From: an uncultured Actinomycetes bacterium
GTDB taxonomy: Bacteria; Actinomycetota; Actinomycetes; Nanopelagicales; Nanopelagicaceae
NCBI GenBank assembly: GCA_903954055.1
Contig: CAJBMC010000156.1
Coordinates: forward strand, 1 to 39,235
Direction: 5' to 3'
DNA: 39,235 bases
Every line of letters starts with the position of its first letter. Position 1 is the first letter of the stretch. A program made the position numbers and the translations under genes. Below the pieces are notes generated by a model. It ran no database searches. It was not told where the DNA came from and saw nothing but the letters and a program-made list of their open reading frames with translations. Positions 36,089 to 39,235 of this stretch are shown here, piece by piece.

Positions 36089-36967
36089 ATGTCAGACCTG
36101 CTTCAGCAATCCTATACAGAATGTAAGCGACTCAATGCGCTTCATGGAAAGACTTACTACCTAGCAACACTTTTGTTGCCGGCTAAGAAGCGACCACCAG
36201 TGCATGCCCTCTATGGATTCGCCCGCTTTGCCGATGAGATTGTCGATGATCTCGCCTCAACTTTGAGCGACCAAGAGAAGGCTGATGCGCTTCATATCTG
36301 GGGCGAGTCAGTGCTTGCTGATTTACGTAAAGGTGAAAGCAACGACCTTATCGGGCGAGCTCTCGTCGATACTGTAAAGACTTACTCGATTCCGCTGGAG
36401 TACTTTGAAGCATTTATGAGATCGATGGAGATGGACCTTACTGTCACTCGATATAAAAATTACCAAGAACTCATGACTTACGTTTACGGATCTGCAGTTG
36501 TTATCGGACTTGAGATGCTTCCCATCCTTGGTTTTAGCGATCCGCGAGCTATTGAAGCGGCAACTGCGCTCGGCACCGCCTTTCAATTAGCCAACTTTAT
36601 TCGCGATATTGATGAAGATATCGAGCGTGGCCGTATTTACATGCCGTTAGATGAATTTGCTCGCTTCGGAGTCTCGGAAGAGATGTTGCTTGCGCGCAAG
36701 CTCACTCCTGAAATCATCGAGGCAATTAAGTTTCAGATTGCACGAGTTCGTGAACTCCAGGCAAAAGCCGAAGCCGGCATCCAATACTTAGATCCAATTT
36801 CGCGTCCATGCATTAGAGCTGCCAGTGAGTTGTACTGCGGAATTGTTGATGAAATAGAAGCAAATGGTTACGACGTCTTTACCAAGCGAGCTACAACATC
36901 TACATGGCGCCGACTTCGAGTGGCGGGAATTGCATTTATCCAGACTCTCTTCCTCCGCATGCGCTAA
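36089..36967 (+). CDS. crtB: Phytoene synthase
   Basis: FARFADEIVDDLA, FMRSMEMDLTVTRYKNYQELMTYVYGSAVVIGLEML, ANFIRDIDEDIERGRIYMP motifs. Confidence 0.97.
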   Translation: MSDLLQQSYTECKRLNALHGKTYYLATLLLPAKKRPPVHALYGFARFADEIVDDLASTLSDQEKADALHIWGESVLADLRKGESNDLIGRALVDTVKTYSIPLEYFEAFMRSMEMDLTVTRYKNYQELMTYVYGSAVVIGLEMLPILGFSDPRAIEAATALGTAFQLANFIRDIDEDIERGRIYMPLDEFARFGVSEEMLLARKLTPEIIEAIKFQIARVRELQAKAEAGIQYLDPISRPCIRAASELYCGIVDEIEANGYDVFTKRATTSTWRRLRVAGIAFIQTLFLRMR

Positions 36968-36974
36968 GGTTTAT

Positions 36975-37060
36975 ATATCGGGAGCCAAATCGGCTGAGAG
37001 GGTCTTATAAATAAGACCGACCGTTTGACCAGTTCGGTAATGCGAACTGAGAATGCTTGA
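36975..37060 (+). ncRNA. TPP riboswitch (THI element)
   Basis: tcGGGAGCCaaatcgGCTGAGAGGGTCttataaataaGACCgaccgttTGACCAGTTCGGTAATGCGAACTGAGAAtgc: conserved GCTGAGA, GGTC/GACC stem, CAGTTCG-GTAATG-CGAACTG P4/P5 arm; 5' of a PnuC-family gene. Boundaries approximate. Confidence 0.88.
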
Positions 37061-37068
37061 GGTTAATA

Positions 37069-37659
37069 ATGTCATCAATCTTCTTTACCGCCTGGGGATA
37101 TCACGTCTCATATCTCGAATTCATCGCGTCGATTGTTTCCTTTATCGGCGTCGGACTTGGAATCACTGGAAAGAGAATTACCTGGCCTTGGTGGGGCATC
37201 AGTAGCGCGCTCTATCTCGTCCTATTTATTCAATGGGATCTCTTAGCAAGTGCGTTGCTGCAAATCATCTTTATTGCAGCAGCTGTGATGGGTTGGTTTG
37301 GCTGGGAAGTATCTGGTGCAAAACCTGGACCTTTCGCAAATAAGTATCGCCTCTTGACCATAGTTGCGATTTTTCTCGCAACATTTATCTTTGCGCCAAT
37401 TTTGACTCACATCGGCGCTGTTGCAGCATTTCCTGATGCGCTCCTACTCTTTGGCAGCCTTGCGGCACAGTTATTGATGGTCTATGAAAAATATGACAAC
37501 TGGCCGCTATGGCTCATTGTTGATGGCGGTTACACAGCGCTCTACGCATCACAAGGGCTACTCTTTACATCACTGCTATATGTTGCATTCACGATTATGG
37601 CTGCATTTGGATGGAGCGCTTGGTATGGAACTCACCGCCGCGCTATTAGATCTCTGTAA
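37069..37659 (+). CDS. pnuT: PnuC-family transporter, probable thiamine transporter PnuT
   Basis: About 7 TM PnuC-like protein (SYLEFIASIVSFIGVGLGITGKRITWPWWGISSALYLVLFIQWDLLASALLQIIFIAAAVMGWFGW, EKYDNWPLWLIVDGGYTALYASQGLLFTSLLYVAFTIMAAFGWSAW); TPP riboswitch upstream. Confidence 0.88.
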   Translation: MSSIFFTAWGYHVSYLEFIASIVSFIGVGLGITGKRITWPWWGISSALYLVLFIQWDLLASALLQIIFIAAAVMGWFGWEVSGAKPGPFANKYRLLTIVAIFLATFIFAPILTHIGAVAAFPDALLLFGSLAAQLLMVYEKYDNWPLWLIVDGGYTALYASQGLLFTSLLYVAFTIMAAFGWSAWYGTHRRAIRSL

Positions 37660-38161
37660 ACCATTTGATCGCCCCATCATTGCGATAGATGGTCCTGCCG
37701 GCGCCGGAAAAACAACCTTGGCTGAACATCTCAGCGCCGCTCTCTCACTTCGTTATAAGTGCACGACCCTACATATGGATAATCTCTATAACGGTTGGAA
37801 CAACTCCTTCGACTTCCATCTCAGTGATGCCTTGCTCTTGGCTTGCACCGCTCATCGAGATGCGAAAAAGTATTCGCTCTCACAGTTTGATTGGATAAAC
37901 GGTGCCTATGGGCCGGCGACCGAAATACCGGATGCGCAACTGCTTATCCTGGAAGGTGTAGGTGCATCGCTTCCAGTTATCAGACCATTTCTCGCTGCTT
38001 CAATCTGGATCGATATCGACCCACATCAAGGTTTAGAGCGAGTGATTGCTCGCGATGGTGATTCAATCTCAGCAGAGATGCAGCAATGGCTCAGTAAGCA
38101 AGAGCAACTTTTTCGCGATAACGACTCACAGAACGCCGCTGATTTCGTACTCACTACCTAG
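37625..38161 (+). CDS. Uridine-kinase-like P-loop NTPase/kinase
   Basis: IIAIDGPAGAGKTTLAEHLSAAL Walker A; LHMDNLYNGW; LILEGVGASLPVIRPFLAASIWIDID; start MELTAALLDL overlaps the pnuT 3' end by 35 bp. Confidence 0.8.
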   Translation: MELTAALLDLCKPFDRPIIAIDGPAGAGKTTLAEHLSAALSLRYKCTTLHMDNLYNGWNNSFDFHLSDALLLACTAHRDAKKYSLSQFDWINGAYGPATEIPDAQLLILEGVGASLPVIRPFLAASIWIDIDPHQGLERVIARDGDSISAEMQQWLSKQEQLFRDNDSQNAADFVLTT

Positions 38162-38170
38162 AATATCGCC

Positions 38171-39235
38171 GTGTCAGATCTCACCGGCGAACTCATCGAT
38201 GGGCGTTATCAGCTCATCCGCCAAATTGCCACAGGCGGAATGGCGAGTATCTACGAAGGTTTCGATACACGTCTTGACCGCAAGGTCGCAGTCAAAATCA
38301 TGCATCCCCACCTTGCACAAGATGAACAATTTGTAGAACGTTTCATTCGCGAAGCAAAAGCTGCCGCGGCGCTATCTCATCCCAATATCGTTGCAGTTCA
38401 GGATCAAGGATGGAACCAGAGCGGAACGCCTGCCGTCTTTATTGTGATGGAGATGATTGAGGGACATACGCTTCGCGAATATCTCAACGAACAAGGCCAC
38501 CTCTCATTCCGAGATGGCATCAGATTCTTGCTACCAGTATTAAGCGCACTTGCAGCCGCCCATAAACAAGGCATTGTGCATCGAGATATCAAGCCAGAAA
38601 ATATCTTGGTATCAAAAGAGGGGCGAATAAAGATTGCAGATTTTGGCTTAGCGAAGGGGCCGCTGCTCGGTTCGACCATGACGGCAGAATCCAGTGTCAT
38701 TCTTGGAAGCGTTTCATATTTATCACCGGAGCAAGTTCAGCGAGGCGTTGCAGATTCGCGTTCAGATGTCTACGCCGTTGGAATCACTTCATTTGAGTTA
38801 TTTACTGGAAAGAAGCCATTTGATGGAGATGCGCCAATCCAAATTGCTTATATGCATGTTAATGAGCGAGTGCCTCGAGTAAGCACTCTCATCTCTGATT
38901 TTCCACACGAGTTAGATGAGCTCATCTACCGAGCGACTTCGGCCGATCCAGATGAACGCCCACGAGATGCATCCGAATTTCATTCACAGCTCTCAGCCAT
39001 TAGCGCCAAACTCAATCCAAAAGAGAATCAGCTCAGTCTCGAGCTCGATATCCCGATCCAGCCGATGCGCCCAAAGACAAAGAAGAAATCTTTGCGAAAT
39101 CGAGTTAAGGAGTTAACGACTCAACTTCCAACTAGCACCGAAACGTCACCTGTTGAAACACTTGCTGAAAAGGTTTCGGTACCCGAAGGTGAAACCACCG
39201 CTCAAATTGCACGCCGAAAGAAGATCAGCAAGCGA
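38171..39235 (+). CDS. Serine/threonine protein kinase (PknB/Stk type), 3' truncated by window end
   Basis: GTG start VSDLTGELIDGRYQLIRQIATGGMASIYEGFDTRLDRKVAVKIMHPHLA; HRDIKPENIL, ADFGLAKG, GSVSYLSPEQ motifs; open to 39235, absent from supplied ORF list. Confidence 0.95.
   Translation, partial: MSDLTGELIDGRYQLIRQIATGGMASIYEGFDTRLDRKVAVKIMHPHLAQDEQFVERFIREAKAAAALSHPNIVAVQDQGWNQSGTPAVFIVMEMIEGHTLREYLNEQGHLSFRDGIRFLLPVLSALAAAHKQGIVHRDIKPENILVSKEGRIKIADFGLAKGPLLGSTMTAESSVILGSVSYLSPEQVQRGVADSRSDVYAVGITSFELFTGKKPFDGDAPIQIAYMHVNERVPRVSTLISDFPHELDELIYRATSADPDERPRDASEFHSQLSAISAKLNPKENQLSLELDIPIQPMRPKTKKKSLRNRVKELTTQLPTSTETSPVETLAEKVSVPEGETTAQIARRKKISKR

Follow-up and report, generated by a model that had tools for sequence, protein, structure and literature searches.

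A variant THI-box leader without the J4/5 loop precedes a pnuT-kinase pair, a candidate thiamine acquisition operon of Nanopelagicales actinobacteria

In E. coli, ThiK and ThiL salvage thiamine in two kinase steps, from thiamine to thiamine monophosphate (TMP) and from TMP to TPP, and ThiK is a member of the APH-like kinases. In Bacteroides, pnuT-tnr3 operons follow a THI element and pair a PnuC-family carrier with a phosphorylating enzyme, a thiamine pyrophosphokinase (PMC5613172). The highly conserved nucleotides of the TPP aptamer are U39-A43, U59, G60, C77, G78 and A80, of which G60, C77 and G78 sit at the pyrophosphate and its metal ion, and loop L5 docks on P3 in the canonical aptamer (PMC3764141). 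The thiM riboswitch binds thiamine about 1000-fold more weakly than TPP (50 uM vs 50 nM, quoted in PMC4112796), and its switching is said to require the pyrophosphate contact (PMC4112796). For acI actinobacteria, the consulted part of Kang et al. 2017 (PMC5301498) reports a probable PnuT behind a THI element together with thiamine auxotrophy, and describes nearly all enzymes of thiamine synthesis and salvage as missing. The locus described here has the same operon leader, transporter and inferred thiamine auxotrophy as those acI genomes; the present analysis adds a kinase, a retained ThiL and the loss of a riboswitch loop, none of which is mentioned in that part of the paper. PnuT with a THI element in acI has been known since 2017; the loop loss and the kinase/ThiL logic were met in none of the papers searched, and full-text searches of open-licence papers returned none on TPP variants without J4/5 or on the kinase described here. 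As in Bacteroides pnuT-tnr3, a PnuC-family carrier stands behind a THI element and beside a phosphorylating enzyme, but the enzyme here has the uridine-cytidine kinase (UCK) fold and is not a thiamine pyrophosphokinase. Two kinase steps ending with ThiL are proposed here as in E. coli, with the difference that the candidate for the first step is a P-loop kinase and not an APH-like one.

We analysed a stretch of 39,235 nucleotides (the window) from a Nanopelagicaceae bacterium. A small genome and its gene content, taken together with published acI genomes (PMC5301498), assign it to acI / Nanopelagicales. The initial annotation had read a THI-box core, a PnuC-family ORF and a P-loop kinase starting 35 bp inside pnuT, and all three were confirmed in the sequence (Table 1). 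The order crtI-crtB-pnuT-kinase-pknB was found again in about 30 genomes of the same genus, and crtB-[RNA]-pnuT-kinase-pknB is kept over about a dozen genera; in loci from about 12 genera this RNA recurs, usually together with the pnuT-kinase pair. All same-genus copies with sequence upstream of pnuT have the THI-box core there, the element also stands before pnuT across the family, and the kinase was found in 191/201 genomes of an order-wide sample. The overlap of pnuT and the kinase gene is 20-35 bp in most of the window's genus (35 bp in the window, kinase ATG at 37625), which is consistent with translational coupling there; many other genera have only about 4 bp of overlap or a short gap. 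Away from the crt genes, a Nanopelagicales MAG outside the studied genus (L115:5322-7266) carries pnuT-kinase with the variant RNA next to an SDR gene and a large gene resembling 2-oxoglutarate dehydrogenase E1, a TPP enzyme. In a related MAG (L114:5926-7224) the kinase occupies that place and no pnuT adjoins it.

Table 1. Features of the pnuT-kinase locus, in positions of the window
Feature	Position	Strand	Evidence
crtB, upstream neighbour, outside the putative thiamine unit	36089..36967	+	PF00494 match; order kept among relatives
Variant THI-box (TPP-class) aptamer, pnuT leader	36979..37062	+	RF00059 33.5 bits; 40-sequence alignment with covarying P3, P3a, P4-P5
CUGAGA, J3-2 pyrimidine (HMP-ring) sensor	36994..36999	+	UGAGA invariant; role per PMC3764141
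P4-P5 hairpin, J4/5 replaced by two base pairs	37029..37050	+	Compensatory changes in family alignment
L5 loop GUAAUG	37037..37042	+	UAAUG invariant in 40-leader alignment
GAGG immediately 3' of the aptamer, probable pnuT Shine-Dalgarno	37059..37062	+	Sequence; inference
pnuT, PnuC-family membrane transporter, 196 aa	37069..37659	+	PF04973 120 bits, 1.5e-34; best start ATG 37069, stop codon ends 37659
Candidate thiamine kinase, 178 aa, UCK-like P-loop fold, PRK06547/NF005115 type	37625..38161	+	
pknB-like Ser/Thr protein kinase gene, downstream neighbour, cut off by the window end	38171..39235	+	PF00069; order kept

The leader shares with TPP riboswitches (RF00059) P2, P3, the UGAGA T-loop, P3a, the L5 sequence GUAAUG and a place just ahead of a thiamine gene, and its THI-box core reads CTGAGA (36994-36999) and GGTAATGCG (37036-37044). 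In contrast to those riboswitches, the J4/5 pyrophosphate-sensor loop is replaced in the variant by two covarying base pairs. A search at the RF00059 gathering threshold (54.3 bits) gave no match to the leader; it scored 33.5 bits (E 3.8e-5, over 36968-37070), and it was the only RF00059 match in the window genome. Orthologous pnuT leaders across the family scored about 30-46 bits, so that all family copies seen fall below the RF00059 cut-off. The RF00059 check proposed in the initial annotation was therefore only weakly favourable (33.5 vs 54.3 bits), although the same element stands before pnuT across genus and family. Since nothing matched at the gathering threshold, we dropped the plain statement that a TPP riboswitch is confirmed; a chance resemblance to a THI-box was also dropped, because the element is conserved across genera and covaries. 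The family alignment shows a structural variant of the TPP aptamer and not a typical member: the pnuT leader is derived from a THI-box but is not a standard TPP riboswitch, as J4/5 is gone. The replacement of the J4/5 pyrophosphate-binding loop in this lineage accounts for the low RF00059 score. The segment 37015-37078 also resembled an animal lncRNA model (RF01933, 14.6 bits, below threshold), which looks like chance.

The loss of the loop was seen in an alignment of 40 pnuT leaders of the variant type, compared with an alignment of 15 TPP elements that lie at other genes in the same class, sister genera included. All 40 variants and all 15 canonical relatives carry UGAGA (J3-2; U39 G40 A41 G42 A43) unchanged, and the four P5 pairs, counted outwards from the L5 loop, were kept in variants and canonical elements alike. 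The canonical U62/C77 and A61/G78 layers were unpaired in 15/15 and 14/14, whereas the variant positions adjoining P5 were paired in 40/40 (GU 24, GC 12, AU 4) and the second positions out from P5 in 36/40 (AU 23, CG 8, GC 4, GU 1). Compensatory changes on both sides occur at these two pairs, and shifting the partners by one column lowered pairing over the whole structure from 96% to 42-44%. In the window copy, A37031-U37048 and G37032-C37047 occupy the place of canonical U59 G60 A61 U62 / C77 G78 U79 A80. The canonical G60/U79 and U59/A80 layers have no counterpart in the 40-leader alignment; beyond the replaced layers come the two C-G positions of P4, which pair in 21/40 and 33/40 variants and show an unpaired U in many copies of the window's genus, and then the conserved A. 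The net change is from four J4/5 layers to two ordinary base pairs, and the pyrophosphate sensor U59 G60 C77 G78 A80 (J4/5 and flanking P4) is absent from the family's pnuT leaders. Because the first canonical set had been chosen by a pattern that favours canonical sequences, we rechecked all RF00059 loci. The canonical C-G-N-A-G-G (J5/4) motif was present in 33/34 TPP elements at other genes, sister genera included, and in none of the pnuT elements, three seeming matches in the pnuT set lying hundreds of bases from the riboswitch and being discounted. The loop-less variant was found at pnuT only.

Canonical elements occur elsewhere in the family, at genes whose names are our own reading of translated ORFs. 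In the genera g31 and g38 they lie upstream of thiO-like genes (with thiS next in g38), in g31 also ahead of a CytX-like permease, in genome G065 upstream of thiC, and in G158 and G179 upstream of a thiB-like gene. The ThiE-bearing family members at loci L255, L256, L259, L282 and L283 and at L257 and L281 have canonical riboswitches before thiO-like genes and a CytX-like permease and carry no kinase. At L260 and L261, the spacer between a TPP riboswitch and the thiB-like genes is longer and includes CCCGTG, the complement of CACGGG on the P2 side of the aptamer, and a separate GGAGG precedes the start codon; these leaders possibly use a mode of control other than that of the short pnuT leaders. 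At the window's pnuT, GAGG stands 6 nt ahead of the ATG, and in relatives GGAAAGGAG comes straight after P4. A Shine-Dalgarno that abuts the aptamer, with the start codon a few bases on, suggests control of translation start. A P1 or switching helix common to the leaders was not found, and their single-sequence folds disagree.

The TIGR01528 score of the window's PnuC-family protein was above the cut-off. A PDB search with the single PnuT sequence found nothing, and the family profile matched the PnuC structure 4qtn (E 1.5e-11). The gene is linked to a (variant) THI element in a genus with the gene content of a thiamine auxotroph, and we infer that the protein is PnuT with thiamine as its transported substrate. 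The choice of PnuT over PnuC in the initial annotation, and its reading of the locus as an uptake-and-trapping unit, are supported by the THI-box-derived leader, by the absence of thiC, thiE and TPK from the genus and by the retention of ThiL. Several genomes of the same genus (L009, L011, L015, L016 and L018) carry a second PnuC paralogue behind a full-score FMN riboswitch (RF00050, 91-101 bits), which is probably the riboflavin transporter PnuX/RibM; such a paralogue was reported earlier for one acI strain (PMC5301498).

For the kinase, the best family match was PRK06547/NF005115 ('hypothetical protein'), a nearly full-length alignment (residues 8-176) whose 78.4 bits are well below the NCBIfam cut-off of 173 bits. 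The pnuT-linked kinases tested against PRK06547 scored 78-97 bits, and relatives outside the family up to 155. The protein matches AAA_18/PRK P-loop models and has no PF04263 TPK catalytic domain. The AlphaFold2 model (pLDDT 94.9) is closest to solved folds of uridine-cytidine kinases, with uridine kinase 3asz as the best PDB match (TM 0.75 for the model). The catalytic Asp and Mg-binding Glu of UCK correspond to D52 and E110, both invariant. In the sequence alignment of 26 family members, the position of the base-reading His117 of UCK2 is never His, being mostly G, N, S or M. With the UCK fold and the Asp/Glu pair kept and the His absent, the enzyme resembles kinases that transfer a single phosphate to a small molecule, not necessarily a pyrimidine nucleoside.

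The gene content of the genus points to the step at which such a kinase could act. TPK (PF04263) and ThiC were not found in 37 genus genomes (the window genome and 36 others), so that the canonical TPK that would have spoken against a thiamine role was not seen. ThiE was found in none of 25 genus genomes tested, G010 giving one weak match far below the cut-off. In contrast to these losses, ThiL (TMP kinase) was strong in 20/25, both single-contig genomes included, in agreement with NCBIfam. The genus thiL adjoins ddlA; for the window genome the search gave no ThiL, and the syntenic match stops 237 bases from a contig end, just inside ddlA. A true loss of ThiL there was rejected, as this gap at the contig end is probably an assembly gap. 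ThiE was found in 6/36 family genomes (G065, four of g31 and one of g38). The kinase was missing from 5/6 of these and present in 26/30 without ThiE, the other four being 73-86% complete (Fisher p=0.0018 over 36 genomes, with independence overstated since there are only two or three independent lineages). The exception is G065, which has thiC, thiE and the kinase together. In G158, G143 and G179, a thiB-like gene lies behind a TPP element and the crtB-kinase-pknB locus stays without pnuT. The kinase is not confined to pnuT or to the THI box, and occurrence with pnuT alone was rejected; it tracks thiamine import rather than one transporter. With ThiL retained, conversion of thiamine to TMP is the likely reaction: the kinase stands as the thiamine kinase candidate it was proposed to be, and its alternative role as a replacement for ThiN/TPK becomes unlikely. 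Retention of ThiL and the phyletic pattern suggest that thiamine to TMP is the step lacking in the genus, and the UCK-fold kinase fits it.

We consider it somewhat probable that the locus is a thiamine acquisition operon of auxotrophic acI-type (Nanopelagicales) actinobacteria, which are tiny and abundant in fresh water, made up of PnuT, a trapping kinase and a leader that likely senses thiamine or TMP. Thiamine would diffuse in through PnuT, the overlapping UCK-fold kinase would trap it as thiamine monophosphate, and ThiL, encoded elsewhere in the genome, would make TPP. The leader would be a TPP-riboswitch descendant that has kept L5 and the pyrimidine-binding half (P2-P3, UGAGA) and lost the pyrophosphate-binding loop; a response to thiamine (or TMP) rather than TPP is therefore most likely. 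It would decide whether ribosomes can reach the adjacent 3' Shine-Dalgarno, and would shut uptake when imported thiamine outruns the kinase.

The ligand is the part of this proposal with the strongest competitor. The RNA may still be a TPP sensor that gives the pnuT-kinase pair ordinary regulation, its shortened P4-P5 helix reaching the pyrophosphate otherwise, e.g. through a groove Mg2+. We give this a real chance, though one short of even: TPP is the pathway product, P2, P3, UGAGA, L5 and the A of J2-4 are retained, and the RF00059 model still detects the leader. However, the family has lost each of the five highly conserved nucleotides on the pyrophosphate side (U59, G60, C77, G78, A80), the replacement positions covary as a helix, and thiM switching needs the pyrophosphate contact (PMC4112796). 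Given the thiM gap of about 1000-fold between thiamine and TPP, a leader that lacks the pyrophosphate side should have given up most of the TPP preference, and with J4/5 gone TPP is not to be assumed as the ligand. Against the reading as a thiamine or TMP sensor stands that no solved TPP-class RNA without J4/5 was found that would show ligand binding by such a fold.

The kinase itself might serve an unrelated ancestral substrate, a nucleoside or other small molecule, between crtB and pknB, with pnuT inserted upstream. The kinase sits at that locus with or without pnuT, its fold is nearest to uridine-cytidine kinases, and the PRK06547 proteins of Microbispora, Nocardioides and Aquiluna lie beside no evident thi genes, so that an unrelated ancestral role is possible. 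We still hold it unlikely, as the kinase was not found in ThiE-bearing g31 and g38 and is kept in thiamine importers of both kinds, ThiL would have no identified source of TMP without it, and the His117 position lacks His in 26/26 family members. That it is instead a new thiamine pyrophosphokinase making TPP in one step, like the TPK/Tnr3 beside Bacteroidetes pnuT, is improbable: such operons are known (PMC5613172) and the genus has no TPK, but ThiL, retained across the genus, would be superfluous and the fold is that of single-phosphate kinases. Least probable of all, and set aside, is uptake of the thiamine precursor HMP or of nicotinamide riboside with a matching kinase, which PnuC family membership (TIGR01528 above cut-off) would allow; there is no ThiE to use HMP, the leader is a THI-box, and the genus's other PnuC paralogue carries the FMN riboswitch.

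Returning to the thiamine acquisition reading, we tentatively suggest, as a possibility short of an even chance, that the leader represents a natural variant riboswitch class that arose from the TPP aptamer by turning a loop into a helix, senses thiamine or TMP, and controls a transporter and an unrecognised P-loop thiamine kinase supplying ThiL in a major lineage of freshwater bacteria. The ligand pocket of the TPP riboswitch is regarded as nearly invariant; here one half of the pocket is gone and the other untouched in a whole family that is very abundant in lakes. Thiamine-making sister genera keep the standard riboswitch, which offers a clean natural test of a shift in riboswitch specificity. 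The kinase is a concrete candidate gene for thiamine to TMP in bacteria that have ThiL and lack ThiE and TPK, and such a kinase would explain vitamin B1 activation in these auxotrophs.
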